DNA from: Sabellastarte sp. h YS-2021
Lineage: Eukaryota > Annelida > Polychaeta > Sabellida > Sabellidae
Assembly: GCA_964017235.1 (NCBI GenBank)
Contig: OZ024936.1
Span: forward strand, 45,497,028-45,561,027
Reading direction: 5' to 3'
Length of the DNA stretch: 64,000 nt
Positions within the stretch are counted from its first letter, which is position 1. Each line of letters opens with the position of its first letter. Positions 2,654 through 51,830 of this stretch are shown piece after piece. A program made the translations under genes and the position numbers. The notes under the pieces are model-generated. The model saw only the letters and a list, made by a program, of their open reading frames with translations. It made no database searches and was not told the DNA's origin.

Positions 2654-4440
2654 ACAGAGAAAAGGACCCTTCAGCACCAGCAACTTTCTAGGAGCTGCAG
2701 TACCACTTCCACAAATGTGCCATGTGGCTGGAATGTCATCTGCTGGGTTAGGTGCCCTGTCTTGTCGCCTTTGATGTGTCTTCATTATGTTGTGCAACGC
2801 ACCACATTTCAAAATGATGTCTCCAACAACCTTTGACCTTTGCTCTATTGTGCCCAGTATGAATGAATCTGATTACCAGGATTCCAAACACATTCTACAC
2901 TGCCCTCCTGTCTCTGGAGATCCTGTAGTTCGCCATTCTATTCTCCATTGTTAGTTGTCTTCTGCTGTAGGGTTTAACAAGCCATGGCATCTAAGCGAAG
3001 CCGTCATTACCTAGCAAAATGTGTACATCTAACCCTCCCTCCCCTAGGGGTTCGGGTGCTGGAAGCCCCAAGGTAACATCCTTGATCTTTTCCTGAAACT
3101 TGTTTGTGGTTAATTATGTGTGAATCTGATGAATATCCCCTTTATGCCCCTCTTCCCCCACATAACTAAGGCTCCCAATTTAGCGTTTTTGGGGATGTGT
3201 TTCCAAAAAATGTAGAGTGCTGGACAGTCGGCTGGAGTCTTTTTGGGTCTGTTGTGGTCGGCATAAAAATCAAACATGTTTCATATTTGCCACGACTGTA
3301 ACCGATTCACTTTCGCCCATACCAACAAATGTCCCAGTCTCAGGACTCTTAGTCCCAGAAGGACTGGACTTAGTCCCAGGCCTAATAAAAATCAGCCATT
3401 ACTGTCTCTATAAATTGGTTATTGGTCACAGGAGCCTGAGGAAGGCTCAGACCAGTCTGAGACCCAGTCGGTATATCCCTGACAGGATCAGGGTTGAAAC
3501 CAATCACAGACGTGGCTTAATTGCTTCATAGTAGGGGAACTATTATGACTTGTATGAGGACATCTGAGGCTTCCCGGGGACAATCTGGGTTTGTTCCCAG
3601 AACTGGATCAAGATTCCATTGTCCCACCCATTTTTGCAGGTTTTTTTGCACCGAATCTCAAGGATTAAGGGTCCCAGGACAAATTGGGCTTTAATCCTTT
3701 GCTGGAACAGGGTCATCACCTGACCCAATATCTACCAAAAGAAAGTTGCAGTCTGTGTTAACCAAGGCTAGCATCACCAGGGAAATAAGCCCTTGTAGTT
3801 GTAATATTCACCCCCGGATCTCTTTGGCTTCTTCATGGTGATATGTTGCCCAGTGCCCCAAGAGGGTGGGGGGCATTCTATCTGGTTCTTAACATCTCCT
3901 CAATCTGTTTCCAGTCTTCAAGAGCGGTAGGGCAGCTCAAATGCTTCATCAAGGATGGCCCGGCAGACTTTGGGAACGAATATACACATGGTAGTTTGGC
4001 TAACCAGCCAATGATACTGTAATCATGTGTATGCTTCTCCTATTGCCATGTGTTTCAGTGTTATTGCCAGTTTCAGTCCAACTTTTAAGGGATTCCTAAT
4101 TTTTTTTACTTCCTTCTTGATGTGGAGGTAGATGTGGTCTTGAATGAGGTCGACAACTGCAACTGGCATCCTCCCAAAATTCTGGTAAACAGGGATATCA
4201 GTCTGTTTCAAGTTGGCCAAGAGGTTCGTATGGGCATGTTTTTTCTTGTATTTGAAGGATTCAGGGCATGTCTCAGGGTTTTGTGGCTTTCTTCTTATCC
4301 TAGGTGCTGTTCTGAAGGTACTGGTTGTATAGTAGGTGGTGGTTCTTGGTTTAGATGAGTCCTCCTGACAAACATCAGGGCCCTGAGCTTCTGTAGAAAG
4401 TCTCTCTGATGTGTAGCTGGCATCTTTGCAGTGATAAATC
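2590..4440 (-). pseudogene. Harbinger transposase, broken copy 1
   Basis: Reading right to left, the protein words match the better-kept copy at 25.4-26.5 kb: an N-terminal part (about 4023-4220, 'KVGLKLAITLKHMAIGEAYT'), a middle part (about 2890-3165) and the C-terminal 'LHNIMKTHQRRQDRAPNPAD' near 2740-2800. The middle is split by a roughly 580-bp insertion and frames shift repeatedly. It is inactive. HARBI1-type transposases carry a DDE nuclease fold; the catalytic residues cannot be traced reliably here. Confidence 0.65.
3170..3755. mobile_element. Insertion in Harbinger copy 1, probably a non-autonomous element
   Basis: Alignment by eye with the copy at 25.8-26.0 kb is lost at about 3170 and resumes at about 3755. 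The intervening DNA contains a stretch (about 3215-3300, 'aaacatgtttcatatttgcc') resembling 12770-12900, so it is probably related to the non-autonomous element there. No protein is recognised. Ends are approximate. Confidence 0.4.
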
Positions 4441-5993: not shown

Positions 5994-8116
5994 ATGTATC
6001 TGGGAAAAGAGGGGTTATTTTTATTGGTCCATGCTTTACACATGGCTGTATCTAAGGAAGCTCAGGCTGGCAGAAACAAAAGATGTAAGTATGTCATCCC
6101 TTCTGTTATAAATATATAAATTGCAAATTTAATTGTATTGTCAATTTTAGAATTAGAAAAAACGTATATTGGTGACATGGAGTAAACCACTGACTTCCAG
6201 AAAGTAGCTTAACAAATTTAATGAGGCAGCTAATGGGGTTCAATGGATACACTTTTCTTATCCATGACGCAAGTACTGGTTATGTTGCTACCTTCTACTT
6301 GAATTCATGTCACCTTATTTGCCTGACATCTATGATATAACTGGTCTGAATCTTGACTATCAAATTTTAGATTTGTTAACATTGATTAGTCCAAGTAAGG
6401 GTTTGGGGTAATATTCACCAGCCAGAGCCATATTGGGACAAGCCCTCAGAAGTAGGTTTTACCACTTGTTTGGGTTGAACCTACACAGAGCTGACACAGC
6501 CTGAGATTAGATGCCAAACTTGGTAGCTATTGGGCGACTGAGGACGTCTATTTACATTGGTCATCAGTTTAAAGATGTTCACCCTTTAATGACTAATAGT
6601 GTCCATTATCAGACACTTACAAAGTGTGTTAATATTAATATTTACTAAAAAGCAATCAAATCAAGCAAAACCTTGTGGTACTAAACTGCGACTAAATTAA
6701 GTCATGGTAATAAATTTTATATTGCCCATATGTCCACAAGCAAGTTTAGTAGTTGGAGCTTTGCCATTGTAGCACAATCCAAGTCGAATAGATAACCACC
6801 TGTAGTCAAGTCTCAATCGTACCCTTCCCCGGTATTTCTTGCTGGGTAATAACTTTCCCGTTTGTCTCCAGCGCATTAGATGGGTTCTATCAATTTTACA
6901 CTATATAAATGCTTGTATCTTAATGTATTCTATTTTAATGTACTTAGATCTTTTAATAAATATAATATCCCAAATACAGTTTGGATAGAACATTTACATT
7001 AGACCATTAATTCTCTCTGGTTTAAACTTAAATGCTCTTTTTACATGTGTAAACTGGTTTGTGCTTTTCCTTCTTGTCACATTTAAACTGGAGCTCTGGC
7101 AGATTTTGATTTTACCAACATGGACAATGCAAAAGATGGTATTGTGAAATGTCAGTACTTTGTTTTTTCTGTTTCTTCTCTGTAGTTTACACACTAAAGG
7201 AAGTCTAAAAGTCTTGCCTCCCTTTGTTAAATAATGTGTTTTACCCCATTAAGTCCTCTGTTATCATTACCTCCACCTTGGAGGTTATGTTTTGAAGGGA
7301 TTTGTTTCTTTGTTAGTAATGAAACTGTTTGCAGTAACAGAAAGCATAACACAAGGTCATTTTATTATATATAGTGTTCATGAGCTAAACACTTGTGCTA
7401 TTATTATTCTTGCAGCTCTACACATCAGTCACTTACTCCCTCAGGTGTACCAGATACCGTCTCCATACAAGCAAACTGGATACACTTCTACAGTCCAGTT
7501 ACCCAGTACCCTGGAGGATTCCTTGGATCAGAGCTACAATTCATACAGTCCATATAGCGCATACTCCATGTATACACCTCAAGCATCACTGTATGGTGAT
7601 CCACTGAGTACACAGATGTATCCACCTGTCTACCCAGCCATGTATCCATACTTTGCTCCACACATGGACCTTGTAGCTAGGATGGGATATGGATATAAGA
7701 AGAAGCATCCAAAGGTCATACATTTGACAGATTGTCATGATGACCATCATGATGCATGTGATCACGATGATCATGATTTGCACACCATTAAGTTCGTAAA
7801 GAATGATCATCATGACAATTACCATGATGACCATAGTCATGGATATGGTATCCACTATGATGATCACCATGATGATTACCATAACAGTCACCATGACGAT
7901 CACCATGATTACCATGATGACCACCATGGTTATCATGATGATCACCATGACTACCATGATGATCATCATGATTACCATGATGATCACCATGACTACCATG
8001 ACCATTATGGCTCCAAGAAGAAGGTTTACAAACCTAAAATTGTTATTATCAAAAAGATTATATCTGATACGACTACTACATTACCCCCTCCTCCCGATGA
8101 AGAGGTTGAAGGATGA
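5994..8116 (+). CDS. His/Asp/Tyr-rich secreted protein 1 (two exons)
   Basis: Exon 1 is 5994-6084 and exon 2 is 7416-8116, with a phase-1 intron (GTAAGT...GCAG); about 263 aa. Residues 1-30 form a signal peptide/propeptide ending R-N-K-R, a furin-type site exactly at the exon junction. The mature protein begins with a Tyr/Pro-rich region (about 31-120), then a Lys-rich block, then the signature K-V-I-H-L-T-D136-C137-H-D...C145. Next is a field dominated by His, Asp and Tyr with five consecutive heptads of type DDHH(D/G)YH at about 191-225. It ends with the strap VYKPKIVIIKKII (from V234), TTTT and PPPP, with an extra acidic tail DEEVEG. It contains only two mature cysteines. It is the first of four tandem paralogues. 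Function is unknown; metal binding and matrix assembly are inferred from composition. The signal peptide core is the weakest of the four. Confidence 0.82.
6425..6545 (-). repeat. SINE D copy 2, in intron of His-rich gene 1
   Basis: Reverse-strand match to the SINE D head: 'gttgaacctacacagagctg' followed by 'gattagatgccaaacttgg' parallels the reverse complement of 35766-35835. It is diverged and its tail is poorly kept. Confidence 0.5.
6780..6935 (+). repeat. LINE/SINE 3'-tail-like repeat
   Basis: The segment 'gcgcattagatgggttctat' followed by 'caattttacactatataaat' parallels 63780-63830 ('gcgcatcagaggaggcttat', 'caattttgcgctatataaat'). Such 'gcgctatataaatgc' ends are typical 3' tails of CR1/L2-like LINEs and their SINEs. 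No coding part is attached. Confidence 0.45.
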
Positions 8117-8179
8117 AGACTTTGTATAGCCATATATGGAATAATATTGCCTCATGATAGGCGTGCATTCCTGTCTTTG

Positions 8180-8185
8180 AATAAA
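8180..8185 (+). terminator. Poly(A) signal of His-rich gene 1
   Basis: A canonical AATAAA lies 64 bp after the stop codon of gene 1. Confidence 0.6.
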
Positions 8186-8663
8186 CATGTTTTTAGAGTT
8201 AGAAATTTCAGACTGTGTCTAAAACCTCTGCAACCTTTGATTTCAGGTAGTTTGGTAACACTCAATATTTTAATAGCACTATAATTTGGCATTTTCTAAA
8301 TAAAACATTTGTCTTTCAATATGTATGCTTATTAATTTTGAAAAGCTGAATCAAAGAAATAAACTATATGTCCAAAGTGTAGCCTTTTTCTCTCTCCTGT
8401 ACACATAGCTCATACAAATATGAAACTGCCTTTTTATACTGTCCTTTATTACATTTTGTAAGCCATTACGAGCTATTTAAATCACCTATGATTACCATAT
8501 CACCCGTACACATTCATGTATATCATTGCACCAAAACGATTGATATACTTTCAGATCAAATTTTCAAAACAGTTTTTATGAACATCAGTAACTGTGGATT
8601 ATTCAGCTTTCTGTTAAATATTTTGGATGATCTTTGAAGAAAATTCATTTTGCTGGTCGATGC

Positions 8664-9924
8664 ATGCTTACAATGGTTGTCAAATATATAACTGTTATAA
8701 TCTTCTTTTGTTTATTTCACAATGTATTGTCTGATTCAGATAAACCTGTCACAAGTTATAAGGATAAATCTGGCTCAAGGAGTAAACGCTGTGAGTATGC
8801 AACTAGAACTTTATTTTGAAATAAACCAAAGATTGTGCACGTGCATAAGATGGTGTAATAGGAAATAGGTCCATTGGGTTTTAATTCTGCTAAAGTATCA
8901 CATGGTAGGTTCATTCATGTAATAATATTAATTTATATTCCCATTCCCCACAAAAATAGCAGAAATGTCCTGGACAGATAACTGTATCATTGTCTCGGGT
9001 CCTGCCCACTACATATCATTCTGCAACTGATGCAAAATGTATGTAAAAATAGTCAGGGTTTTAATCTAATATCAATAATATATCAATAATATCAATCTAA
9101 CATCAATATCTTGGTAATATGTTGACAAACTATGCTTATTTTCTGAGTATTACTATTGAAATTGGTTCCATAAATAAACATTATAGACAAAAATTTATTT
9201 CAAAATGTTTTAGTCATGTATTTGCTGTAACCATTAGTGGATATCTTATCTTTCAGCTTTAGTTAATCCAGTCTCAGACTATGGCTTCTATGACCCACTG
9301 CTATACTCTGGCAGGTTACAGTCACATCACTTCACGCACAGATCACCCATCACTATGGATCTACAAAATCCATACAGCCATATAACCCAGCCCTATTACA
9401 ACCCATACCTAGCCCAGCTTTTCCACAATATGGGCCTCTTCTACCCAGGAATCCTTCAAAATCAAGCTGGTCAACATCCAGTGAATCTAGCTCACATGGA
9501 GCATACTGCAAGGATGGGTGGATACAAACGTAAAAAGAAGCAGCAGCCAAAGGTTGTACATCTAACAGACTGCCACGATGACCATGATGCCTGCCATGAA
9601 CACAACAATCAACACGTCATTAGCTTTGATAAGGATGATCATGATTACCATGATAATGACCATGACTACCATGGAGATTACCATGATTTAGATCATGGAT
9701 ATTCCTACCATGATTACCATGATGATTACCACGACGATCATGGTGATTACCATGATTTCCATGGAGACTACCATGATGATGATCATGGGGATTACCATGA
9801 CTATCATGATCATGGTGGGTATGGAAGAAAGAAAAAGGAGAGAGTGTACAAGCCCAAAGTGGTCATCATAAAGAAAATTATAGAGCAGTCAACTACTACC
9901 TTACCTCTTCCACCAGCTTCTTAG
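8664..9924 (+). CDS. His/Asp/Tyr-rich secreted protein 2 (two exons)
   Basis: Exon 1 is 8664-8790 and exon 2 is 9257-9924, with a short phase-1 intron (GTGAGT...TTTCAG); about 264 aa. The first ATG of the frame is 8664, and a second at 8673 is possible. A clear signal peptide core (VVKYITVIIFFCLF) is followed by a propeptide ending R-S-K-R at the exon junction. The mature N-terminal part is Tyr/Pro-rich ('PYLAQLFHNMGLFYPG') and, like gene 1, shares 'H-M-x-x-x-A-R-M-G' before the Lys block. The signature is KVVHLTD147-C148-HDDHDAC155. The His field mixes DYHDD, GDYHD and DFHGDYH units. The strap VYKPKVVIIKKII starts at V239, followed by STTTLPLPP. It begins about 550 bp downstream of gene 1 and is its closest relative. 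Confidence 0.87.
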
Positions 9925-9956
9925 GCGAAAATCAGTTCCTGGATTGATTTTTTTTC

Positions 9957-9962
9957 AATAAA
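9957..9962 (+). terminator. Poly(A) signal of His-rich gene 2
   Basis: AATAAA lies 33 bp after the stop codon, within 'tttcaataaataagtc'. Confidence 0.6.
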
Positions 9963-10925
9963 TAAGTCAGCTCATTTACCAAGTCATATATTCACTAGTC
10001 AATATTAAACCTATTTTATAATGAATGAAAAAAAATTCTGAATGACAGTTTGCATACTAAGGATAAAATTCGTTGGAATATAAATTTAATTTCTAACTGT
10101 TAATGATGAGTCTGGAATTGAACAACTTATTGTAGGGTTTAATGTTGTAATTCTTTTACTTCAGTTATTTCTACAACATTTTGTGATCATATCAATGATA
10201 AAAATCCTTAAATGTGTATTTTGGTAGGTTCATCACTTTTGCTGATTGTGTATAAGAGGACATGTCACATTGGATCTCGTGTTGCATTTGCATTTTCATA
10301 GTTACACATTATCTCAGGTTACCTTTTGTCAAACTAGTTTCGAATAAATGTCAAACTAATTTCGATTTTTTTTCATATCGTGGAATGTTGTTGCAAAGTA
10401 TTTTCAATATGACAAATGTATTAACATTTACAGAATTTCAAGCATTTCATTCTATGAGAATGGAATCGCCACTTTAAAAGTGAGATGTGATCACCTACCT
10501 AACCTGCAATCAATTTTTATTGGTGATTAAAAGTGCAATTAATGGCTGCATTTGATAGATTCAGGAAGCTATCACACTATTTATGACATCTGTTAGTCAT
10601 ACATTAAGCTCTTACATATGTATATACAAGAGACATATCAATCACAAGGACATATACTGGTCACTTTTGTTGATATCTTCAAAGCCTTTGACAAAGTGAT
10701 ACTTCTAGATGGTGTGAAACCAACAATAACAAGGTAATGTATGCTAATTGAAATTCCTTCTTTTACCTTTAAACCACTCCTCCTTGCCTCATAAATAAGA
10801 TTTTTTGTCCCCTTGCTGAATTACTCACTTGCATTTGCTTTAACAGTACACCATAGTGGTCAACAAACTGGTGATAAATGTTGCAAGTTATTTGGATAAC
10901 AGAAAATAGTTAATCTATTTACATC
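9963..10925. other. Spacer between His-rich genes 2 and 3
   Basis: AT-rich with no gene. At about 10640-10720 there is a scrap ('tggtcacttttgttgatatc' then 'ttcaaagcctttgacaaagt') that reads like the F-V-D-F-x-K-A-F-D-x-V box of a LINE reverse transcriptase. It is too short to assign. Confidence 0.35.
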
Positions 10926-13900
10926 ATGGGGATAATAAAATGGTATTTTGTTTTGTATTTGCCATTTATTGTTTATGCTTTGACAGAGGATGTTTCTGCA
11001 AAACAGGAAGCCAAGAGTAATGTGGTTGAGACTGGTAAAAGTCACAAAAGAATTAAAAGATGTAAGTTTGTATGTGATCATATATTTTATACGCTGACGA
11101 TAGCAACATAGATTGCCATGTGGTGTTACAAAGACATTGCGGGTTATTGTGCACAGATAAATAAAGATGCAGTGTAGACAAAGAATTTATAACTGGAGAA
11201 AAGTAACTGAATTTTACATTTGAATAACTATTAAAAATACATTTTTGGGATAGTTTATTGTACTGCAAATTTCTTAAACATCGTTTTTTTTTCATTCAAA
11301 CTCTATTTGTGCTGTATACATTGGTGATTTGAGGTTATTATAAATTTTCTGTCAATTCACTTTCTATTCATTAGACAAGCAAAACATTGAAAAACTCTTG
11401 TAATAGTTTGGAATGAATGCTTCTTTGTGAGAGATAGTAACCAATGGCTGTCCGAAATGATTGGTATAACTAATTATACCCTTTAGGAATGGTTGTTTTG
11501 TTAAAAGGTATATCAACTCTTATCATACTGGACCAAGTGATCCCTATAATCCCCAAAACAATAACAAAAACTTTTTTATGAAAGACTGTTCCTTGTTAAT
11601 TGCCATATCCCTACAGATGATCAAAGAAACCCAGTAAATTTGCACATTCTATGTATTATGGTCCTCGTTTTTTATTGTTTCATTGTTCATGTAAACTACC
11701 CATTACAGCACAGGTATAATGAGGAGTGCCTTAAGGAGTACAAACATTCTCCTGCGGATTCAGAAGCAAATATTGTGAAAAAATATTTAAAATCCACAAT
11801 TACACACTGTGGATCCGGATCATCTTTGTGGAGGAGTACACCTGAACTTATGTAAGAATAAGAACATAGTGTAATCCAATAGTTTTTGAGTTATAAAGCA
11901 GATGTTGTCAAAAAAACCTTAAACACTTCTGGAGTCTCGCTTCAGATCCAAATCATCTTTAAGGAGGATTGAGTAGCGGGTAGATTCCCCCTAATATGGG
12001 CAAGTGCAACGATTAGAAAGGAAAGGTTGTAGATGGCATCACTTCCAACTAAGCACAGAAGTGTACCTTGTACCTTGTATTCAAATTACTCGGCTCTAAT
12101 TATTTAATAACTGGTTATGTGACCAATAACAAAAACTTTAAATATCATCCTTCACATATACAAGAAAAATACTTGCTCCAGCTTTTGCATCATACAAGAC
12201 CATTATGGATAGTCAATATTGTCAAAATGGATGGTGTAAACAGTGCTTATATGCCAATTTTACAATGTGCCATAATAAACCTGTCGCCAGTGAAACTAAT
12301 TTGCAATTTACCATCACATAGTATACGTAAGGGTATGATTCTAGGTAGATAAAGACACGGTACATTGTGAAAATCTGTTCTAGATGATTCCATTATGACT
12401 GAGATTACAGGTTTGTGGCAGCCATTTTGTATATAATGAGCTCGTATATGACAGTATATTAAGAGTTCCATCCAAGACTGTAAAACGGTGGGAAATTATG
12501 CCTATCTTCGAAAGTCCATATCCAATCCCCACTTTTTACATTGCGATGGTTATTTCAACTCCTTTAATTCAGATAATAAGTAAATCTTTAAAATGTTGTC
12601 ATCTTGTTCCTTTATTACTTCTCCTCTATAGTTCTGTAGGAGAATAGCACAAAATCTAATCAGCCAATTCCCCGGGTGGTGCATATTCTGAATCTTTGTC
12701 ACAACAGATTACTAACAACTAGCTACTTGTTGGTAGCTAAGCATTTTTCGGGGCTTGGGACCAATGTTTAAAATAGTCGGTAAGGGCAAGTTTTATTTTC
12801 CCGGCTTGTCGTGGGGGGTCGGTAAAATATAAAACATGTTTGATATTTCCCCGACTCTTCTTACAGTCCCGTGATAGGATCCAAATATTCAGCCTTGACC
12901 TAGTTTCAGATTTTTTTATTGGTCGACACTTGATTCTCTTTCTGCCCATAAATTCATCAAAAACTGTAATGGCAATATTGACTGCAAGTCTGGTCGTGGT
13001 GATTCTGTATGTTTCTCCAGTACTGTCAGTTTGTCAGTATGGATTGTCAGTACCTGCCACGGCTTGTCTGTTATGGGTTTAGGGGTTATTCTAGTACTTT
13101 CCAGACTAGTCATGTACAAAATATCCCGACCCCAAGGCAGTGTATCACGACCTGTTGGGGAGGTGAAACCGACCCGAATTTTTTCCTCCTTTCTTCGTGG
13201 ATCTTTGTCCCGGACCCCCGACTTTTGCAGCCGACCACAGAGTCGTAAGGTCAGCTCCAGTGGAACACCCACATTAAATATACTCTACTAGGGCTGTTTT
13301 ACTTTTATTATCCATCACTTTAATATATAATAAGCGATAGGAGTCCATACTTAACTATTGGCTAGAGCTTAAGACAAATGGGCAGACTTGCATTTATTAA
13401 AGTATGGATGTATGGATGGATATAATAAATTACTGAACCTTGAGTATTCTGCTATGGCAATTCTGATGTTGTATAACTCATGTTTGCTTCTTTAGTAGAT
13501 GATGAATTTTGTTTGCTTGTTAGTTGTCTTGCTTTCTAAAAAAATAGCTTACCTCCATTTTCTGTCTAGTATCAATTATTCCATTACTCTTATACTCATG
13601 TTTGTGGGGGAGGCCGGGTGGTGTAGTGAGTAATACACTCAGCTCCCGCCTCTTAAGTTGATGGTTTGAAACCCCTAGACCAGACCCTATGTGGGAAAGT
13701 TGGTAGTTGCTTACCGATACCCCCCAGTTTACAATGCAGAATCTTGACCAACTGGTATATACTGGTTTTGTCTCCCTTAAAACTACCTGCCGTGATATTA
13801 CTTGTACAGTGTGTTGAAAGCAATGTTAAGTCCAAATAAATCAAATATATTCATGTTTGTGGACTACGTGCACATTTTTTTGTTCAGGCTATTTTTCAAA

Positions 13901-14835
13901 TCTAGCCATATTTATGTTGCACTGAAATGCAAAATTACTTATAGCCCTTGCTTGAAATCATGCAGTATTGTTACTTTCTCTAATTCTATAATGAATTATT
14001 TTTACAGTTTTTTTCTGTAAATGAAAGGCACCTCTAAAGATTAAAATCAAAGCTAATCTAGGAATTGTTTTAACTTCATTTAGTTTGGTTCGTTTTAACT
14101 GCTGTTTGCTTCTAGGCTGCTCCTTCAAAGATATATATGGTTTCACTATAACAGTTATTTGATATTATTTGAATTATTTTTGTACATTAGGAATATTTTC
14201 AACAGGTTTTGTTGTTTTATTGCACATGTAACCATATGTATTTCACAGAGTATTTTCAGAGTCTAACCAACCAGAGACAAGAAAAATGTTTTAAAATTGA
14301 CAGTTATCCTTCCATCTAAATGATATATTTCCTAACCAAATCTCAGTTGACCCCTGTACCTGTTCATTTTATAGCCTATGGTGAAGACTATGGTATTGGT
14401 GAATATGATGCAGTGTACAGCCAGCTTGCCACAGCTGCTAAGTCAGGTTACAGCAAGAAACGCAGGCGTTCAAGGAAGAAGAAGGTGGTTCATATCCTTG
14501 ACTGTCATGACGGACACGATTGTCATGGAGACGACAGTCATGAAATTAGCTTTGACCACTACGATTACCACGATGACCACAGCTACCATGATTACCATGG
14601 AGATTATCATGATGACCATGGATTTTATGATTATCATTACGGCGGTGGTGGTGGACATGGAGATTACCATTATGATGAACACGATGATCATGGCCATTAT
14701 CATTATGATGATTACGATGACCATCATGGCGGAGGTTATGGACACAAGAAGTCGGTGTACAAACCAAAGATAGTGATCATAAAGAAAATTATTTCTCAGT
14801 CCACTACAACCCAGCCACTGCCTCCACCTTCCTAG
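10926..14835 (+). CDS. His/Asp/Tyr-rich secreted protein 3 (two exons)
   Basis: Exon 1 is 10926-11061 and exon 2 is 14375-14835; about 198 aa. The 3.3-kb phase-1 intron (GTAAGT...TTATAG) contains a Harbinger-related element and a SINE. A signal peptide (MGIIKWYFVLYLPFIVYA) precedes an acidic/Lys propeptide ending R-I-K-R at the junction. The mature protein lacks the long Tyr/Pro-rich part of genes 1 and 2. It starts SYGEDYGIGEYDAVY, then has a strongly basic block (KKRRRSRKKK) and the signature KVVHILD88-C89-HDGHDC95. The His field carries a Gly-rich break (GGGGG) and tandem HYDDYDDHH-like units. The strap VYKPKIVIIKKII starts at V173, followed by STTTQPLPPPS. A codon frame starting at the ATG 14320 is intronic and should not be used as the start. 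Function unknown. Confidence 0.85.
12755..13290. mobile_element. Non-autonomous Harbinger-related element in intron of His-rich gene 3
   Basis: The right part (about 13080-13287, ending 'agctccagtggaacaccc') parallels the right terminal region of the Harbinger copy at 26690-26995, including 'tcttgttggggg'-like and 'actgacccaacatttttgct'-like steps. The left part resembles 3215-3300. No transposase is present. The left terminus is uncertain. Confidence 0.45.
13596..13862 (+). repeat. SINE B copy 1 (tRNA-derived) in intron of His-rich gene 3
   Basis: A tRNA-like head ('ggtggtgtagtgagtaatac', B box 'ggtttgaaacccc') is followed by the family body 'gggaaagttggtagttgctt' and a tail ending in 'aataaatcaaat'. 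The 12-bp target-site duplication TCATGTTTGTGG (13596-13607 and 13851-13862) bounds the copy. Confidence 0.85.
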
Positions 14836-16500
14836 ATATAGCCAGTCTTTTTCGGGTGGAAAAAGTATCTGTTGGATTATTGATGTCAAACACTGTAAAT
14901 TTAGTCAGAGTTACCCATCCATTTTAAGGTAAAAGTTATATAAGGTTTTTTTATTTTACAGTGGTATGAACAGTAATCCGGGAATCTTTTTTTTCTTGTC
15001 CTGGTGAACGTAAAGAAATCCACAAACATGTTACGGGACTGGTTATTGAATACATTATTGTTTTAGGCTTTTAAATGGCTGATACTCTATCAAAACAATA
15101 AGAACTTTTGTGAAATATCTCACATTTTGCTTTATATTTGCCAAGTTAACACATTAATTTTACTCATTTTAGTATATCGGGCCAAATATATTTCCAGGTA
15201 TAAATAATAACTCATCATGTAGTTAAGTTTTACCATATTATATTTCTGAGCCATCAGAAATAAAATTCATTTCTGTGTGAAAAAGGAATAAGATTAACTG
15301 TACAAGGGACCACATGGTGAGGCAACTGACTTTGATGTGTTGCTGACAAAGAACAGTTTACATGGAGGGAGGGTAAAACCATTTTAAATGTGTAAGATGA
15401 AAACAACTAATTTCTAAAGAAAAATGTTGCAAAAAATTTAACATGAAAAACTCTCAATATATGTACAGTTACTGGGATATATAAGTATATATGTGTGTGT
15501 ATGCGTGTGACCATTTGAATAAATCTGTGTCATAAAAGTCATTGGTGACTTCACTGACTTGGCCTCATGACTTCTGCACTAGAACTCTTTTTATATCTGT
15601 TCAAAAAATAGACAAGTTGATATTAGTTCTCATAGAAGTACCATAAATTTATTTTATCCCTTTTTACCTCACTAGGACAAGTGCCTTGCTCTTTCTATTG
15701 CTATGTTTCTAACACAGTGGATACTGTGCAAAGATGATAAATAATCTTATACAACTAAAAGCAATGTTCCAAAACATGAGATCCATTTCAGTTAATGTAG
15801 CTTTTAGACATGTTATTTTTATCCACCACGGAAACGTTCAAACATATGCTGTGTCTACAAAATAGAGTCAAAAGCCTTTCCTTGTTTCATATCAAACTTT
15901 AATTTACTTCCTCCACTTTGGTATTGATGTAGCAGTTAAAAATGAATTTATATGGCACACCATATGCCCTGAAGGTAAACGAGAAGGTGTACTGAACTTA
16001 AGTGACATTGTGTTGATAGTGAGTTATTTAATATGTAAATTGAAGAAGAACACAATCAGCTGAAGCTTTTTTTAGGCTTTGTTTCGCTTGATTCTATTTC
16101 ACTCTAACATTATACTTTCTAATCTCTATTTCAAAGTTTTTAACGAGGTTGCAATCTTCTAATCATAGAAATATGTCAGAAGTAGGGCCGTGTGTCACTA
16201 CAGCTAGTGACAGTGAATTAATGCGAGTTCAGTAGCCACAGCCTGACTTCTTTGTGGGGAACAATATATCATCTGTTGAGCAGAATTAAAATCATTGAAA
16301 TTCAAATCTTAGCTTTCAGTAATATCATCTTTTTGATGTTAATGTTCTATTTCTTTGATCCAAAAAGGAAAAAACAACAAAGGAACAATTATTGATAACA
16401 TTATATGGACCACTTGCTGAAAAAGAATGGTCTTTGTAAGAACTGAACAAGTTCCAGAGGAAAACTTTTGTTTTATAAATATGACTTTCTTTAATATCAA
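14836..16500. other. 3' region of gene 3 and spacer
   Basis: Contains a candidate poly(A) signal AATAAA at 15259-15264, rather far from the stop codon. The remainder is AT-rich, without recognised genes or repeats. Confidence 0.4.
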
Positions 16501-16504
16501 GCCT

Positions 16505-17060
16505 TGTAACTCACTTTTAATCTTGAGCTCTAGCGCGGTTTGTGCTTCTACAGATCACGTTTTTCAAGTCAATGGACTTTCATAAATTGTGGTATAGTGT
16601 GAAGATTCTGACTCTCATCACTGATCAAGTTAAGTGAAACTTAATTTGGCTATGTTAATACTTGGATGGGTGACCATCTGAGTTCTAGGCCTGGTTTGGG
16701 ATGTATTAGACTGTGAATTTATTTTTGTCAGCAGGTGTTTTTGTCTAGTGCACTACTCGTGTCTCTTTCGATTCACAGCTCGTGCACATACTGTACAAGT
16801 ACTCTTAAGTTACTGACATTCCCCTAACTGTAAGAAAGAGGCTCCACGATGACCATTTATCAATAGTTTTGGAGATACTTTAACCTGAAACCAAGGAATT
16901 GACCCAATGTCAGAGGATCGTCATTTTAAGTGATCATCCAAGCCCCCATATATCTGCCTGTACCTGGGTTTGAACCCACATCTTCTCTGTTCCCAGGTGA
17001 GTGTATTACCCACATGGCCACAGTGGCAGGTAGACCGAAAGGCTTTTGGGTCTTGTTATC
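16505..17060 (+). repeat. SINE C copy 1 (5S rRNA-derived), split by SINE A copy 1
   Basis: The segment 'aatacttggatgggtgacca', preceded by 'catcactgatcaagttaagt', matches the internal promoter half of 5S rRNA. The head is 'gagctctagcg...gtgcttctacagatc' and the tail 'agctcgtgcacatagaccgaaag'. The tail is interrupted after 16790 by a reverse-strand SINE A and resumes at about 17031 with 'tagaccgaaaggc'. Confidence 0.75.
16791..17030 (-). repeat. SINE A copy 1, nested in SINE C
   Basis: Reverse-strand tRNA-derived SINE: 'tacctgggtttgaacccaca' is the complement of the B-box region, and 'ttactgacattcccctaact' is the body. It parallels 34211-34520 and 46409-46712. It lies exactly within the 'cacata/gaccgaaag' tail of a 5S-type SINE. 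Confidence 0.8.
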
Positions 17061-18049
17061 TTTAATTAAATAACACTCATTTTGTGTATTGGTTATACGT
17101 GAGTTCTGTGGAATACAAATAGTAGCTAAAATACATAAATGTGGAAACCATGGATTCCCTTAAAAGTTATGTGTACCCCACTTATTGACAAAATTGTTAT
17201 CAGTCTCTTTTGCTTAGATGTATTGGTATTTGTATAATTATATCTCATGAGCAGAAGGCTCTTTTTAAATTTGAACCCACTTGTCTATGCACAACAACAA
17301 AGATCTACTGCAATGCAATTAACAATAACCTTCAAACAATAGCCATTGAATTTGGCCAATTTGACAATATATTCATGTCACAGAAAAACATGACGCTATT
17401 TTAAAAACAATCTTTGGTGAGTAAGTTTTTGCGCTTTTTAAATCCCTCTTGGTATTTTTCTCATTAATCACATTACTGTTTATGTAGTATCTTAGCTTTT
17501 GCATTATATATCAATCTAATTTGTTGTTTCAAAAAATATCATATTCTTCATATAATTTGAAACATATATAAAAAGAATTAGGAACAACATTGGTATTATT
17601 TGGGGTAGTCTTAAAGTGTCTTCTATCTATTTCACCCACTTCACATAGCAGAACGTTGATGGTGTCATTTAATATGCAGAAACTGTGGACTAAACTGGTG
17701 ATGAAAACTGTGCATTGAGTCTCATTAAAGTAAGCGTGCAAATTGAGCTTAATGCAATTAACTGAAGGCTATGAGTCCACTTCTAAATACCTTGATAAGT
17801 CTACATGACTAAACTACTGATAGCATTTCTATTAAAGTCAGAAAACTGTGAGAATCTCTCATTTGGTGCTAAGATGCAAACTGCAAAACATGGAAAGTTG
17901 TTGAAAAGCTCACTCAAGAAAAAAATAACCTCAAAAGAAAGAGTTGATATTGATACTTTGACCTATACTTGAGGATAGTTACATAGTTGTCAACATACCT
18001 GTATATATATATATATATATATTTAAGTAGTATTGCATTGAATGAAGAA
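17061..18049. other. Spacer upstream of His-rich gene 4
   Basis: AT-rich, with no gene recognised. A (TA)n tract at about 18001-18021 lies some 30 bp before the chosen ATG of gene 4 and could act as a TATA element, but it may be just a microsatellite. Confidence 0.35.
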
Positions 18050-20704
18050 ATGTATAAAATTTGGATTTTTCTGACTGCTTTTGTTGCCTTGTTGATGGTA
18101 TCTGGCGCTAATCCATTAATAAAGAAGAAATCTACCAAGGATGTGGATTCCAAAGTCCACTCCAGGATTAAGAGAGGTGAGATTTGGTAAATGTATAATA
18201 GTATATTTTGTACACAAATATTAATCAATTGTTGATACATAAAACTGCCATAAAATGTATAATTGAAGCATTCTCACACACAAAAATAAATTGTTTCAGA
18301 AGGAAACAACCTGTCTCCGAAACTGCTATTTTTATAGCCCTTTGTACACCTATACACAATGTTATATTTTTATTTTCATATAACTCACAACAAATACAGT
18401 GAAGAGTTACTGTAACTTTCAGACTTTCTGTTTTGAAATAATATTAATCTGTACTGTAACTTTCAGACTTTCTGTTTTGAAATAATATTAATCTGCACTG
18501 TAACTTTCAGACTTTCTGTTTTGAAATAATATTAATCTGTTTTCACTATTCTAAACTGATGTTGAGGTCATTTTGAATTCATGAAAATGAATTGTAAATC
18601 ATGTTGATCTTTCATATTTTTGATCTGAAGATTACATCACGCATGGGTGGATAAGGGTTGATCAAGATTTGTGTTTCAATAGAAACTCATTCCAGTGACA
18701 TATTAATACTAGTATCATATTAACAGCATTGCGTACTGTCCAATAAAGCTTCGGAATTAATGTGAATGTAATTTCCTATGTCTTAAACTAATGGTGATGC
18801 ATGCAAGTTCAGTTCATCCACATTAAATGTTTATAAAGAACGTCTTGTTAATTATCAATGAATATGCTCAGAAGGCAAAGCTTTGTCCATCAAAGCTGCT
18901 TCCACCAAAACAGATTTGATTCAATAGCAGTGTTTTTTTTAAATTAAACAGAGTGGTTTTTTCTTCATTTTGACACAGTGTAATTAACAAGAGTCTGGCA
19001 AATTCAAAACCTGAGGGCTTATTTAGTAGTCCAATCAATGCCACATTTGAACTTTTTTGTATTAAATTCTGTGAGCTGTTTGTGTTAACAAAACGTTATG
19101 TTGGCCCATATTTTTGTTCATTATATGCGTGACTAAACTATTGTATGTGCACTGACATGACAGTACTATAAAAATAATGTGCCAGTCACTTCTAGACCTT
19201 ATCATCTTTACAGAGGAAAACACGAATCTTTCCACAGATCCATCCTTTGTCGAGTTGTTTAACATTTAAGAAGAGGCTCTCACTGTGATCACCATCTTGT
19301 CTTCTCATCCGCCATCTTTAATTGATTTTACTTTAATGATCACACCTTCGTTTGTCTTTTATCTTTAGTCTATTGTGTTGTCACCGTTTGTGTGCAAGAA
19401 GTACGAAATATTTGTAAAAAAAAATAAGTAAAAGCACACATTCTGGAGAATCAATCTGGATTCATATCTGAATCATCTTTGAGGACTAAACCAAGGGTAA
19501 ACCATTACTTGTGTGAAGACGTGACACAGATCCAATGTGTTGTTTCTTAGTTATGCACGCCCACAAACTGACCCGATTTTGTAGACCCTCAACACACTCG
19601 CTGGGGGCAAGGATAAACATGTCGTTTGAATATCTCAACATATCCTACCTGAATTAACAATGTGTTCCCATGTATCAAAAATCCAAATTCATTATTTCTA
19701 TGAAGTTACCATCACCACAATATATCCAGCATTCGACATATAATTAGCTTCCAAGTTGTATATAGGCACAGAATAAACCAATTTTAATTTAGTAGTTATC
19801 ATAGACTTAATCTTCCAGTTCATGATCGCCTTGTTCTGCGCCAATATAAATGTTAAACTATCCTGTTGACTTTTTCAGGAATACCATATCCCCAGTTAAA
19901 TGCTGACAAATTTGTGGAACTTCCAACTTTGTTTGTTATCGGTCCAGATTAGTTTATTATGTGGCAAACTTTCTCTCTGTTTTAGGCTGCACCAATTGAA
20001 CTTAATTTCATCTTGCAGTTATATCTTAGTTTTCAATTACAAAGACTGCAACAATCCATACCATGCCAAATCATTCAAAACCCTTTTTAGTATAGCAAGT
20101 TATTTGATAGAATGAAAAATTGTATCTGTTGTTCAGCCTTCTACAGTAGGTCCTAAATTATGGATGCTTTCAAACTTATAAAACTCTGATCTCAGTGGAT
20201 CCTTTTTGGATTTTATTACAGAGTTGGCATCATTAGATCACAGTGTGATAATACATCTATGTTTCAGCCTACTACAGTAACTTTGACGACCATGCTCGCA
20301 GAGGTGGAAGAGGTGGGAGAGGTAGGAATAAGAAGGTACTCCACATTGTAGACTGCCATGATTCTCATGATTGTGACTCATTCAACCATCATCCAGTCAG
20401 CTTTGGTCATAACGATTACCATAATGATTACCACAATGATTATCACAACGATTATCATGATGATTACCATAACGATTACCATGATTATCAAAATGATTAC
20501 CACAGCTTTGATCATGGTGATTACCACAATGATTACCATGATGATTACCATGATGGTGAGTATGATTACCACTATGGAAACTCCCATAGCAGCAAACATG
20601 GTGGCTCATCTGGTGGATACGGAAACAAGAACGTCTACAAACCAAAAGTGGTGATTGTGAAGAAGATCATCACCCAATCCACCACAACTGTACCTGCAGG
20701 ATAA
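18050..20704 (+). CDS. His/Asn/Asp/Tyr-rich secreted protein 4 (two exons)
   Basis: Exon 1 is 18050-18176 and exon 2 is 20268-20704; about 187 aa. The phase-1 intron is GTGAGA...TTTCAG. The ATG at 18050 gives a good signal peptide (MYKIWIFLTAFVALLMVSG); an upstream in-frame ATG at 17987 would add a stretch encoded by the TA repeat and is unlikely. The propeptide ends S-R-I-K-R at the junction. The mature protein begins AYYSNFDDHARRGGRGGRGR, so its basic block is Arg/Gly-rich. The signature is KVLHIVD71-C72-HDSHDC78. The repeat field uses NDYH units (Asn replacing Asp) rather than DDYH, making it less acidic. The strap is VYKPKVVIVKKII (from V165) and STTTVPAG. Exon 2 lacks an early ATG, so ordinary ORF scans miss it. 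Confidence 0.86.
18409..18540. repeat. 44-bp tandem repeat, three copies, in intron of His-rich gene 4
   Basis: Three nearly identical 44-bp units beginning 'actgtaactttcagactttc' and ending 'attaatctgt'. They differ at a single base, indicating recent expansion. Confidence 0.95.
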
Positions 20705-23299: not shown

Positions 23300-23515
23300 A
23301 AAGGAAAAGGGGTCCCGGTAACACACTCGCCTCCCACCTCTGAGATCAGAGTTCAAATCCCGACCCAACCTCACATGAGAAAGCTGGTAGTTGCTTACTG
23401 TTGATGAACTGTATTTACTTGTTTCCTCTGCCATTCTGACTACCCATTACAATAAAATTGAAACAAAAGTATTAGGCGTGACATAAACACCATATAAATA
23501 AATAAAGGAATTAAA
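23300..23515 (+). repeat. SINE B copy 2
   Basis: 'acacactcgcctcccacctc', a B-box-like 'agttcaaatcccgac', and 'agctggtagttgcttactg' match the family. The tail differs from other copies ('ttaggcgtgacataaacacc', then 'aaataaataaa'), suggesting a subfamily. A short flanking repeat 'ATAAAGGAA' is visible on both sides. Confidence 0.75.
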
Positions 23516-25400: not shown

Positions 25401-27000
25401 GTTGTCTTTCAATAGTTCTCATTGGTGTTTGGCCTCCCTCGAATGATTTCTGTAGTTGCTATCTGACACATACACAACCTGTTCATTTGTTTTGGCTGCT
25501 CTGTCATTTCCTGGGGTGAGTGCCCTATCTGATCTGCCCCGGTGTGTCCTCAGCATGTTATGCAATGTCACACATGTAAAAACAAAGTCTCTGACAATCT
25601 TTTGTCTTTGTTCCATGGTGCCCAGTAGTATCCTGCATCTGCTCACTAATATTCCAAGAGCATTTTCCACCACACCCCTGCCTCTGGAGATCCTGATGAT
25701 GGCTATTCTTTCTTCCCTGGTGAGTTGTCTTTTGCTGTAGGGTTTCATTATCCATGGCATCAATGTAAAGGCTTTGTCACAGAACAAGAAATAGTTCAAA
25801 TTTGGCCCTTCCTTCCCCAGTGATTCAGGTGGTGGAAGCCCCAAGGTGCCATCCTCTATCTTCTCTCTCAAATCACTTCTGTGTATCTGATGAAGATCCA
25901 CTTGACCCACAGGAATCAGTATAGTGCGTCAACCAACTTTGTCAGCACCAGGGAAAAGAAGCCCTTGTAGCTGTATTAGTCACTTCAAGATTTCTTTGGC
26001 CTCTTCATGGCGATATGCTTCCCATCTATTGCTCCTAAAGCATGGGGGGACATTCCATGTGATTCTTAACTTCTCCGCCACCTTTTTCCAGTCTTCAGGG
26101 TCAGTATTGCAGAGCAGATGCTCCTGGAATTAAGCAAGGTTGGCTAGGCAGACCTGGTGGATGAAGGTGGTGCAGCCAACCAGCCAGTGATACTGCAAGG
26201 AGGTGTAGGTCTCTCCGGTTGCCAGGTGTGTGAGTGTTATTGTCACTTTTAATCCAAGCTCTAAGGCTTCCTGACTGGCTTCTTGAAGGGGTGTTTATAT
26301 GCGTTCTTTGATGTAGTTGAAAAAGGGAGGTAGCATCCTGATAAAATTCTGGAAGCCTGGGATATCAGTCTGTATTGAGTCGACTGGATGCTGTAGCATC
26401 CTTTTTCTTGTCTATAAAGGATCCAGGGCATGACACAGGGGTTTGGTGGCTTTCTTCTTTTCCTGGCAGCTGGCTGGGGCTGTGGCTGTGATGCTGGCTG
26501 TAGGGCAAGTACTGTTCCTCGGTTCGTTGAGTCCATTTCTGTCCACAAATCATAATGAAAATCAAAATATTGGTGATTTGTAACTGGTATCTTTAAAGTG
26601 ACATATGATGGATTATGACAGCCAAAGGGGGTTTATATAGGTTTAGTTTGATGCCGACTCTTGATCCCGACTCCATTAATAAATTAGTCCACTCGGAGTG
26701 AGTCGGAAAACACTGAAGTCCAAGTCAAGTCACTACAGCCTGTCAGGGTCTGATACACTTTTTTGGTTAGGGGTTTTATGGCTTGTTGGAGTAGGTCCCC
26801 GTCTTGTCATGGAGAAAATCATCCTGATCCCAAGTCAGGTCGGGAGGTAGATCCAGACAAGCTGGAATGTTCTATGTCTTGTTGGGGGTATATAACTGAC
26901 CCAACATTTTTGCTCATTTTTTTCTGGATTTTCGTCCCCAACTCTAGAGTTGTAGAGTCGGTTATAGGGTCGGCTCCAGTGGAATACCCCCATAAAGCAC
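25400..27000 (-). mobile_element. Harbinger DNA transposon, copy 2
   Basis: Carries the transposase remnant described separately plus a terminal region (26690-27000) shared with the copy at 4560-4850 and with 12755-13290. The outer right end reads 'gggtcggctccagtggaata' followed by 'ccccc'. No companion DNA-binding gene is visible, and the left end was not found. Confidence 0.6.
25419..26545 (-). pseudogene. Harbinger (HARBI1-like) transposase, partial and broken
   Basis: The N-terminal reading frame (26261-26548) starts MDSTNRGTV or slightly upstream, with a Gln/Pro-rich segment and 'RKRRKPPNPC'. Across frames come words typical of the family ('YTSLQYHWLVGCTT'). The last 163 codons (25419-25910) are intact: FLFCDKAFTLMPW carries the probable second catalytic Asp, and RGRGVVENALGILVSR carries the probable third acidic residue (Glu). 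It ends with 'FTCVTLHNMLRTHRG'. Such transposases cut and paste the element using a DDE nuclease domain. At least two frame breaks lie between the N- and C-terminal parts, so this copy is not functional. Confidence 0.75.
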
Positions 27001-29354: not shown

Positions 29355-32305
29355 ATATATACATAAATGGGGTGTTGTTCTTACTTGTTCTTATTTTTAT
29401 ATCTTTTCAACTTTTACACATCTGCATCCAGTTTAAGGTTTGAAAAAAGAAAGAAAAAGAAATGTGCTTAACTGGATTGTTAGCATAACATTTACCAAGA
29501 AAGTTATGTTTTTTTTACATTTGTTTGTCTGTTTGTGTTGCGATAACTGCAAAAGTAATAACTGACGTTTCTGATTTTTTTGCATTAGTATTGGATGACC
29601 AAAGGAAGAAGCCGTCAAATTTGGCTAATTCCGGATCATATTCTGAATACAAAAAGCCCAAATATTTAAAGTTCCCATTTTCAATGTATTTTTATTGACT
29701 TTGGCTTTCTGAATTTTGTACATGAGTAGAGCTTAATCAAAGCAAGCAGTGGTTATATTTTGGTAAGTCTCTGGACACCAAAAATCTCAACGTTTTGGAA
29801 ATGCCCCAGGGGTATGAGTTCTAGATGTCGTTTTAATGATGATGATTATTATTAGTATTACTAGTTTTAGTAGTAATAGTAGTAGTAGTGTACAAAATTA
29901 CAGCCTGAACCCAGTCCTATGGTAGAGCTGTTACAACCAGATAAACAAGTGCAAAAAGTATATTGTTACTTCATTTCCTTATCTTGCAAAACATATAGTA
30001 CTATTTAAAGACCACAGTGCATAAAAAAACTTTTGCACACCTGTACAGATTATAGGTGTAATAACACACCTGCCAAGTCCCATCTTCAAACTCCCACTAT
30101 AAAACACATTAAATGCCAATTAAATCAGGTACTTGAAAAAAAGAAACATCCCTCCCTGAAACTGTGCTACCTCACACAAGTATATTTGCCATGAAAATCT
30201 GTGTGTGTACAATACAAAATAGTATAAAATGAGGTGAAATTACTGTTTACTGTTTGATAAACTGTCTTGGAAAGGGGTCAGCTTGAGTCCAGAATAATTT
30301 TCTTACCTACCCTTAGTGCAAAGATTCTTCCATCAAATGTACTTTAAAAATGTTGTGATCACACATAAGTAATGGCCATATAATGTATGATTAACAGTAC
30401 AACTCGACTGTAACTTGTTTTCAAAATATTAGTGAATAACTGTGTAGTTTTTAGTGTAACAATGCAACTTCCGATAGTGTTTTTAACTGTATTGATAAGC
30501 ATGTTCTTCAACCAGTTCTTGACCACATTTTTTCAAAGTGCTATAAATTGTTATGGCACTCTTGATTATCCAAACTCCTTATTATCAAAAAAAAGTTAGC
30601 CCAAGGTTCAACAGTAAATAGTACATTGTATTATTTTTGTGAACATATTAATATTCTTTTATAGCTCTAGTTGTAAACAACTAGTTGTAAACAGTCTGAA
30701 AACAGTCTGAAATGTTTAAGCGCACTGGTTCGTTACCAGGATGTAGAGTTTATAACACTGGAGATCTGAATCACATTCTGACATTTTACCGACAGTGTGT
30801 CTTTCATGACATCTACTTTTAATAACTGTAGGCATCAGATTGCACTGTTCATGTAAATTTGCACCTGAAAATTTGTATTTTTAATTATGAAATTCTTGTA
30901 ATCATAGAGCAAAGTTGTGTACCTTGTGGATTATAAAAATACTAATGTATTTTGGTGGAATTGTATCCAAGAAATAACCAAGTTAAATACTATACTTGAA
31001 GGTTTCATTGAAAGTTTTGCAACCCAAGCTGAAAGAAAAAAACTAACAATTTACTAACAATGATTGATAGACATTAATGAATGTATGACTGTAACCCAAC
31101 CAGGTCTTAGAATCACATTATTTATGATTAATATTTGAAATGTTATCTCCACAGAGTCCTCACTCTCACTCTCTCTCTCTCTCTCTATCATTAACTGTTT
31201 CAGATGGAGTCTGAGACCTTGCATGTTACAGACTAAATGCTAATTATCATATTAATTTATAAAAATACTTTTTAAACAAAATTATCCTTATTCAGCTAAA
31301 GCTAAACTTCAGCAAAAGAATCACTTTGTTATACAATTAAATTAATTGCATATTCAATTACATTCAATCCTTCCAAATACATTAATAACAAAAAGATGGC
31401 AAATAAACAGTTGTGTCCTTTTTGTGTGGTCAGAACTCCTCCGTACATACTTTCAGGGATGTTATTCCATATGCCACTTTGAGGGGCTTGTATCTCAGTG
31501 GGGGATGCTTTGATTGATGTGGGATTTTCTTTACTGGGATTGTCTTGACCGCTGGTATACACATACATAGTTTGAAAGGAATTTTTTCTTGCACTGTGGA
31601 CTTGTTACGTCTATTGTTGATCAATGGCTCTATAACTCACAAGCTCAAGTCATGCAATATTTGAAGAACCCTTAAAAGCACCAATAAATAAAGTACCAGA
31701 AAGGAAGTGCGCTTAATTGAATTATTAATTTACATTCTTAATTTTTATTTCAGAACTCTGATAGACAGTAACAAATATATCTCAGTAAGCAAGATTAAGT
31801 TGGTCTGACACCACAGAAATAAGAATAAAATAATTCTATAGCTTAAGTGTTTTAATAATTAAATAATGATTTATGAAAATTCTATATAAGATTATATATT
31901 TTAATTTCACTAAACTATGTGCTATTTGCAGCTGAATGTAATTCCAATGAATACACTAAAATAAAACACAATTTAAGGCCTCATTAGAAAACCATGAGGT
32001 CACCACAACTTTGGGTCCATATCATATCACTTTGTGACCTTGACCTTACGTTTACATGACAATACATTACATAAATTTAAGGTGGCTTTAATTAGAGATT
32101 GAGATTGGTAATTTAGCTTGGTAGGTCAGACTAGTTAGCTAAATAAGGTTCACTTTACTTATTTTTTTTGGCTACAATGTTAATAAGTTTAGAAAACTCT
32201 GTGATCTTTATGAAAAAACTCTTATATTATTTATTCAGTGTTTGATGTCACACCTACTACTTTTATATCAGTTATGTTGTAATGGGTAGGTTATAGTAAT
32301 CCAGT
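29355..32305. other. Gene-free stretch
   Basis: AT-rich DNA with microsatellites (TAG/TAA-rich near 29840-29890, and (CT)n at about 31163-31186). No gene, splice structure or known repeat is recognised. Confidence 0.4.
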
Positions 32306-32310
32306 ATATA

Positions 32311-32455
32311 TATGTTGGTAAAGGTTCTGTACTCTGAACTACCAATCAACGGCAAGCTACTACCAGCTTTCCCACATGAGGTCAAGAGAGGATTTGAACT
32401 CTGATCCCAGAGGTGGGAGGATAGTGTGTTACCACTGAGCCACCATAGCCCCTTA
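32311..32455 (-). repeat. SINE B copy 3
   Basis: Reverse complement of the tRNA-like head and body: 'ctaccagctttcccacatga' and 'agaggtgggaggatagtgtg'. It is 3'-truncated. Confidence 0.75.
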
Positions 32456-51654: not shown

Positions 51655-51679
51655 TATTTTAAAAACACACTTCTTGGAG

Positions 51680-51830
51680 TACATGCAGTTGGTCAAGGTG
51701 CTGTGCTGTAAACTGTCGACCATCAGTAAGCAACTACTAACTTTCCCACATAGGGTCCGGGGTTTGAACCACAGACCTCAGAGGTGGGAGGCGAGTGTGT
51801 TACCACTGCACCACTGTGGTCTCTCCAATA
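51680..51830 (-). repeat. SINE B copy 6
   Basis: Reverse-strand copy: 'actaactttcccacataggg', 'ccggggtttgaaccacaga' (B-box complement) and 'agaggtgggaggcgagtgtg'. Its 3' part is missing. It abuts the MITE. Confidence 0.75.

Follow-up and report, generated by a model that had tools for sequence, protein, structure and literature searches.

A tandem cluster of five two-exon genes, each encoding a putative secreted protein rich in histidine, aspartate and tyrosine, lies on chromosome 10 of the fan worm Sabellastarte sp. h YS-2021. Four of the genes (G1–G4) are within the window, that is, the 64,000-nucleotide stretch of contig OZ024936.1 analysed here, and their intact models on the + strand span positions 5994–20704 exactly. 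An initial annotation of this DNA had described four same-strand, two-exon genes with a common plan, and both the gene models and the shared modules bear this out. The count itself was one short because the window edge cut the cluster: a fifth copy (G0, 195 amino acids (aa)) lies on the same strand upstream, at window coordinates −4135 to −2960. Together the five genes extend over 24.8 kb, and their introns (466–3313 bp) are all GT-AG and in phase 1. The intron of G4 contains three copies of a 44-base unit (18408–18540) that are 97% identical.

All five proteins share one architecture. Exon 1 encodes a putative signal peptide and a short propeptide that ends in R-x-K-R, the furin consensus, always at the same phase-1 junction (RQKR, RNKR, RSKR, RIKR and RIKR in G0 to G4, respectively). 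Signal peptides were judged by hydropathy, and the Kyte-Doolittle means of their cores range from 1.97 (G1, the lowest) to 3.52. The mature protein begins with a block of 28–105 residues (N-block), Tyr/Pro-rich in G0–G2 and short and basic in G3 and G4, followed by a Cys-His-Asp motif, K-[VIL]-[IVL]-H-[IL]-x-D-C-H-D. The region of this motif holds the only two Cys residues of each mature protein, the second lying 4–8 residues past the first. A D-Y-H-D field of 75–98 residues comes next, 67–79% of which are His, Asp, Tyr or Asn, and all five proteins close with a basic-hydrophobic strap, [VF]YKPK[IV]VI[IV]KKI[IL], and a TTT-x-P tail.

Residue order within the field is strict. Across the five fields, 43 of 61 Tyr residues are followed by His, compared with a mean of 15.6 and a maximum of 27 in 2000 shuffles. 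The dipeptides DY (38) and HD (49) exceeded not only the means of 300 shuffles (16.7 and 32.0) but also their maxima (26 and 45), with HH (12) below its mean of 24.3 and DD (28) and DH (31) close to theirs.

Asp, His, Tyr and Asn are all encoded by NAY codons, and such codons account for 54 of 75, 77 of 98, 65 of 92, 57 of 85 and 65 of 94 field codons in G0 to G4. At the DNA level the field consists of tandem repeats whose units measure 9–69 bases. Since NAY codons make up most of it and further frames are likewise open, its long open frame is weak evidence for a gene when taken alone, and the same properties would fit a minisatellite caught by chance in non-coding DNA, or a set of decaying copies. 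We consider this explanation extremely improbable. Splice sites, the R-x-K-R junction, the Cys motif and the strap are kept in five copies despite near-saturated synonymous change, and none of the five reading frames is broken. On sequence grounds, it would be the flanks, not the field, that decide that G0–G4 are genes.

Six frames of 104 kb contain the joint signature DCHD ... YKPK[IV]V[IV], both parts in a single open frame, five times, and 40 dinucleotide shuffles never contain it. A scan of the + strand of the same 104 kb for exon 1 (an ATG exon of 22–74 codons ending in R-x-[KR]-R, one further base and then GT[AG]) returned eight rows, every one a start-codon variant of the five known exons. 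Pooled over 10 gene pairs, 35 conserved codons gave a proportion of synonymous differences (pS) of 0.84 and a proportion of nonsynonymous differences (pN) of 0.19, the latter biased low because these modules were picked for conservation. The near-saturated pS indicates that the copies are old and have been kept by selection on the protein, and the conserved modules of G0–G4 are under purifying selection. A self-comparison of the window, which covered G1–G4 (E 1e-8 or better, runs of at least 60 bp), found that these genes share DNA only within the field.

Table 1 Coordinates of the gene cluster and of one dispersed repeat (window positions; negative values lie upstream of the window)
Feature	Coordinates	Strand	Description
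G0 exon 1	-4135 to -4021	+	Propeptide end R-Q-K-R
G0 exon 2	-3432 to -2960	+	
G1 whole gene	5994-6084 + 7416-8116	+	263 aa
G1 exon 1	5994..6084	+	Putative signal peptide and short propeptide, end RNKR
G1 exon 2	7416..8116	+	Mature protein 233 aa: Tyr/Pro-rich N-block, CHD motif, field, strap, stop
G1 Cys-His-Asp motif and HDDH/DYHD field	7730..8023	+	98 aa, 33 H, 31 D
G1 strap and tail	8024..8113	+	Strap VYKPKIVIIKKII, tail TTTTLPPPP
G2 whole gene	8673-8790 + 9257-9924	+	261 aa
G2 exon 1	8673..8790	+	Putative signal peptide and propeptide, end RSKR
G2 exon 2	9257..9924	+	Mature protein 222 aa
G2 Cys-His-Asp motif and field	9568..9843	+	92 aa
G2 strap and tail	9844..9921	+	Tail STTTLP
G3 whole gene	10926-11061 + 14375-14835	+	198 aa
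G3 exon 1	10926..11061	+	Putative signal peptide and propeptide, end RIKR
G3 exon 2	14375..14835	+	Mature protein 153 aa
G3 Cys-His-Asp motif and field	14500..14754	+	85 aa
G3 strap and tail	14755..14832	+	Tail STTTQP
G4 whole gene	18050-18176 + 20268-20704	+	187 aa
G4 exon 1	18050..18176	+	Putative signal peptide and propeptide, end RIKR
G4 exon 2	20268..20704	+	Mature protein 145 aa
G4 Cys-His-Asp motif and NDYH field	20351..20632	+	94 aa
G4 strap and tail	20633..20701	+	Tail STTTVP
SINE-like repeat copies	13618-13845, 23317-23405, 32301-32457, 39185-39429, 47736-47916, 51678-51839, 58120-58354		

Relatives in the genome and in sequence libraries

The proteins had initially been annotated as secreted members of an unrecognised family, a description that held across Pfam, PDB, viral and prokaryotic contigs and literature strings. 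At curated cut-offs, a Pfam scan of G1–G4 assigned no family to G1, G2 or G4, and G3 gave a single sub-threshold match (E 0.19, 12.2 bits against a cut-off of 25). A PDB search with G3 returned nothing up to E 1, and one with a five-row profile returned six aminopeptidase rows (E 0.43–0.57) that we took as chance. There were no relatives among 70 pattern stretches in viral contigs or 142 in prokaryotic genomes, and five literal strings from the field and strap had no occurrence in the literature text searched. The family would be new in the sense of new to the libraries searched, with NCBIfam and other annelid genomes and proteomes lying outside the search; orthologues can be expected among other fan worms.

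Genome-wide searches, which covered 1,785,957,881 bases in 647 contigs, led back to the same locus. All six rows obtained with G2 fall in the cluster, including one for G0, upstream of the window, as do 7 of 7 rows with mature G0 and 7 of 7 with an edited G2. The N-terminal half of mature G1 gave four rows, three of them in the cluster; the fourth, on contig C2 (E 9.81), was rejected as an extra copy, as a one-frame translation of the stretch contains stops and has no likeness to the family. A DNA pattern for the strap matched ten times in the genome, with five matches in the cluster, and its reversed control matched 41 times, so stray matches to this pattern arise by chance. The five outside the cluster (one each on contigs C2, C3 and C8 and two on C4) were rejected, having nearby stops and no field. 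All three matches to a YHDDYH DNA pattern lie in G2 and G4; because the reversed control gives six, their number says little and their place alone is informative. As far as a search that scores only its best candidates shows, and such a search may for that reason miss distant copies, the family appears to occupy one locus in the genome, with the remaining matches at chance level.

Charge, disorder and candidate functions

His and Asp are nearly equal in number in the five mature proteins (26/23, 38/37, 31/31, 22/24 and 21/22) and make up 14.0–16.6% and 14.0–15.9% of residues, respectively, with Gly at 3.9–12.4% and isoelectric points (pI) of 5.88–6.34. The spread around equality is small (chi-square 0.31; lower-tail p 0.0025 with 5 degrees of freedom (df) and 0.011 with 4 df), and the field taken separately shows this less strongly (p 0.032 and 0.079, respectively), hinting at a balance tighter than independent draws would give; this is a hint only, because the test was made after the counts had been seen and the genes are related. 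Net charge, computed with textbook pKa values, is +6 to +11 at pH 5.5, −2 to −13 at pH 6.5 and −11 to −27 at pH 8.1 for the mature protein, and −5 to +2 at pH 5.5 and −20 to −27 at pH 8.1 for the field alone. With near-equal His and Asp and a pI of 5.9–6.3, the computed charge therefore changes sign between pH 5.5 and 6.5.

An AlphaFold model of mature G3 (152 residues, with the split first codon omitted) has a mean predicted local distance difference test score (pLDDT) of 47.5 and a predicted template modelling score (pTM) of 0.13. The pLDDT is below 50 for 111 of the 152 residues, and the model contains one low-confidence helix and no strand. The mature proteins are, on this prediction, probably intrinsically disordered. 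Pairing of two basic-hydrophobic stretches as strands was considered and rejected on the same strandless model.

We propose, at a probability of roughly one half, that this tandem family consists of five secreted, furin-type-processed, disordered polyampholytes that serve as a pH- and metal-triggered matrix protein of the tube, mucus, cuticle or chaeta. The initial annotation had suggested metal-dependent matrix or metal-storage proteins. Of these inferred roles, composition, predicted disorder, computed pH-dependent charge and likeness to His-rich proteins of annelids and squid favour that in a matrix.

The proposed chain of events from granule to seawater is borrowed, by analogy, from sabellariid cement and squid histidine-rich beak proteins (HBPs). 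The preproprotein would be cut after R-x-K-R within the secretory pathway. Protonated His would, inside an acid granule, nearly offset Asp in the field, and the protein would be soluble or form a dense fluid. On release into seawater (about pH 8), His would become uncharged and the net charge strongly negative; the freed imidazoles could bind Zn, Cu or similar ions and bond with adjacent Tyr, and Asp could take up Ca and Mg. Sticky ends towards acidic fields or acid polysaccharide may be provided by the C-terminal strap and by the basic portion of the N-block, and the one pair of Cys residues may serve as a node, through a disulphide or a metal ion. A gel or a hardened matrix would result, in the form of tube lining, mucus, cuticle or chaeta. 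In squid beak, His deprotonation and His-Tyr bonding are described as starting the condensation of HBPs (PMC6884462), and the cement of the sabellariid P. californica has been suggested to pass from pH 5 inside the granule to pH 8.2 when it reaches seawater (PMC12621633). Metal binding by His is reported to require its deprotonation (PMC6477608), and deprotonated His is described as a metal ligand in mussel threads (PMC6477608) and in nereid jaws (PMC13120676). The genus Sabellastarte is described as inhabiting parchment tubes that it secretes itself (PMC13234546).

DOPA (3,4-dihydroxyphenylalanine) chemistry is at least possible, given 44 matches to the tyrosinase domain, counted by exon, in this genome. 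These matches are themselves clustered, 25 of the 44 lying at 182–193 Mb of contig C1 (11) and 184.0–185.5 Mb of contig C3 (14), and may represent an expanded set of catechol oxidases in a tube worm.

The family may also be a separate natural solution to setting under water, an extension of the proposal that we hold only tentatively and regard as possible but doubtful. Here evolution would hold His equal to Asp, and the field, near charge balance in the acid granule, would be unlocked by the pH jump in seawater, with Tyr-His pairs as stickers and the strap as an end joint. Fan-worm tube or mucus would then set without Gly-rich repeats or a phosphoserine partner on the same chain.

Several points weigh against a triggered matrix protein. 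The His-Asp balance comes from five genes, all of them related, is less marked when the field is taken by itself and was tested post hoc. At pH 5.5 the whole protein is computed to be net positive, not neutral. None of the 44 tyrosinase matches is on the contig that carries the cluster, and nothing ties them to the G0–G4 proteins. The field is not Gly-rich, unlike the His-rich hard-tissue proteins as excerpts of the papers cited here describe them. The AlphaFold alignment contained five rows only, so the evidence for disorder is weak. Cleavage might also fall at basic runs of the N-block, those of G3 and G4 for example, and the features described would not tell tube, chaetae, mucus and cuticle apart.

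Other functions would draw on the same modules. Soluble extracellular carriers or stores of Zn, Cu, Ni, Fe or V, in the body fluid or the feathery crown, would make use of the His/Asp field and, in two copies, of an amino-terminal Cu/Ni site, a role we think rather unlikely. Sabellids hoard vanadium and arsenic in the crown, a matter on which our literature search gave no sabellid paper on point. Every protein is rich in His and Asp, C-H-D-x(n)-C with a nearby His could form a metal node, and after R-x-K-R the mature N-termini of G0 (S-F-H, at the start of exon 2) and G1 (S-L-H, from 7416) place His at position 3, the amino-terminal copper and nickel (ATCUN) motif. However, His at this position in two of five proteins is near chance (about 0.16 by hand, at a 15% chance each), and it is absent from G2–G4. 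What a conserved hydrophobic strap and a TTT-P tail would do for a soluble carrier is not evident, and divergent copies with variable repeat length would suit material proteins better.

The proteins could also be host-defence precursors: microbes in mucus would be killed by the strap or by the His-rich field, whether released or left in the chain, in the manner of histatins. The strap is cationic and hydrophobic and among the best-conserved parts, and both the prepropeptide organisation and the tandem multigene family would fit such a role. KK or KKK/RKKK directly before the strap in G1–G3 is a possible processing site, but G0 and G4 lack KK there and none of the five has R-x-[KR]-R between field and strap. 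Given also that the net charge computed at seawater pH is strongly negative, unlike that of most antimicrobial peptides, we judge a defence function improbable. A silica- or mineral-directing protein of the glassin type seems very improbable: the succession of a His/Asp field and a Thr/Pro tail resembles the HD, P and HT domains of glassin (PMC10772126), but the tube of Sabellastarte is described as parchment (PMC13234546).

Whether as a His-rich extracellular material or as a metal protein, the family is ordinary in kind, old and selected, and its design looks new. Related literature searches, none aimed at that topic alone, brought up nothing on the tube proteins of sabellids. Being compact, at five genes, and having a clear candidate chemistry based on pH and metal, the family would make the chemistry of fan-worm tube and mucus testable, and G0–G4 offer a new sequence design for water-setting materials.

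Other features of the window and the genome

Elsewhere in the window, a near-perfect tandem duplication of 1073 bp (44258–45330 and 45334–46406; 97.9% identity) encodes a small Cys-rich domain (CVGVPPWKETPGIDKWCVDNCNRGYCPASHCKC) and then a Thr/Ser-rich, mucin-like stretch, with no Pfam match. Just upstream, at 43684–44109, is a Thr/Ser-rich open frame with an internal 84-base repeat that possibly belongs to the same mucin-like gene.

A dispersed repeat resembling a short interspersed nuclear element (SINE), about 90–240 bp long and found on both strands, has copies that are 75–90% identical (Table 1), and a second dispersed repeat of 205–314 bp has copies at 16803–17029, 34211–34528 and 46390–46702 that are 78–86% identical. 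The left edge of the window carries a tandem array (1–298, 325–621 and 623–749) with units 91–98% identical. Fragments of mobile elements include a reverse transcriptase piece at 62590–63249 on the − strand (PF00078, E 3.1e-30) and a DDE_Tnp_4 transposase piece at 25422–25928, also on the − strand (E 2.3e-9); in the self-comparison, 2725–3098 is 72% like 25493–25872.

The mitochondrial contig of the same assembly (15,345 bp) carries cox1, cox2, cox3 and nad3 on one strand and nad1, nad2, nad4, nad5, nad6, atp6, cob and rrnL on the other, with protein-gene names read from translations and rrnL from Rfam. In Sabella spallanzanii, cox1, cox2, cox3, nad3 and atp8 are described as lying on the positive strand, with all remaining genes on the negative one (PMC7889199). 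A scaphopod, considered and rejected as the source of this DNA, differs in gene order (PMC9859601). The apparent cox3 of the present contig (832–1790) spans two frames (832–1419 and 1332–1790), which may reflect a frameshift or a sequencing error.

Comparison with known histidine-rich materials

The nereid jaw proteins Nvjp-1 and Nai11527 are, like G0–G4, annelid and secreted, contain about 16% His and are known from several related transcripts, and in zinc-hardened nereid jaws His is described as the zinc ligand in the natural tissue (PMC13120676). Nai11527 is dominated by Gly and His (29% and 16%), a dominance absent here, with 3.9–12.4% Gly and 14.0–15.9% Asp, and the excerpted description of the jaw proteins mentions neither an Asp balance nor a strap (PMC13120676). 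His clusters as defined in the same source (at least 10 in a row or at least 8 in 20 residues) are found in G0 and G1, which reach 8 in 20, whereas G2–G4 fall short; the longest His run is 3.

Squid HBP-1 and HBP-2 share His/Tyr repeats with the present proteins, and their disorder, switch by His deprotonation and use of Tyr as the partner (PMC6884462) match what is predicted or proposed here. They are described as built from tandem GHGxY, of which G3 has one instance (GHGDY) and the other four proteins none, Asp standing in the place of Gly. The sabellariid cement proteins Pc-4, Pc-5 and Sa-5 also come from a tube-dwelling annelid, are secreted and His-rich or His-containing, and have been suggested to meet a pH jump (PMC12621633). 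As described there, however, they are basic, with 8.6% His in Sa-5, in contrast to the pI of 5.88–6.34 and 14.0–16.6% His found here.

Glassin, from a glass sponge, combines a His/Asp-rich domain with Pro- and Thr-containing domains; compared at the level of this description, all five proteins have a His/Asp field and a short TTT/P tail, and no His-Thr domain was seen. It differs in its sponge origin, its silica and a conserved, non-silicifying C-terminus (PMC10772126). The His-rich domains of mussel preCol (PMC6477608) and mfp-4 (PMC12621633) are described as forming His-metal cross-links in a secreted holdfast, and mussel threads are reported to be about 50% less stiff below pH 5 (PMC6477608). 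The preCol His domains flank a collagen domain, whereas G0–G4 have no collagen-like repeat. Judged from their sequences, the G0–G4 proteins appear to be members of none of the groups that could be tested, and would work much as HBPs, nereid jaw proteins and cement do.

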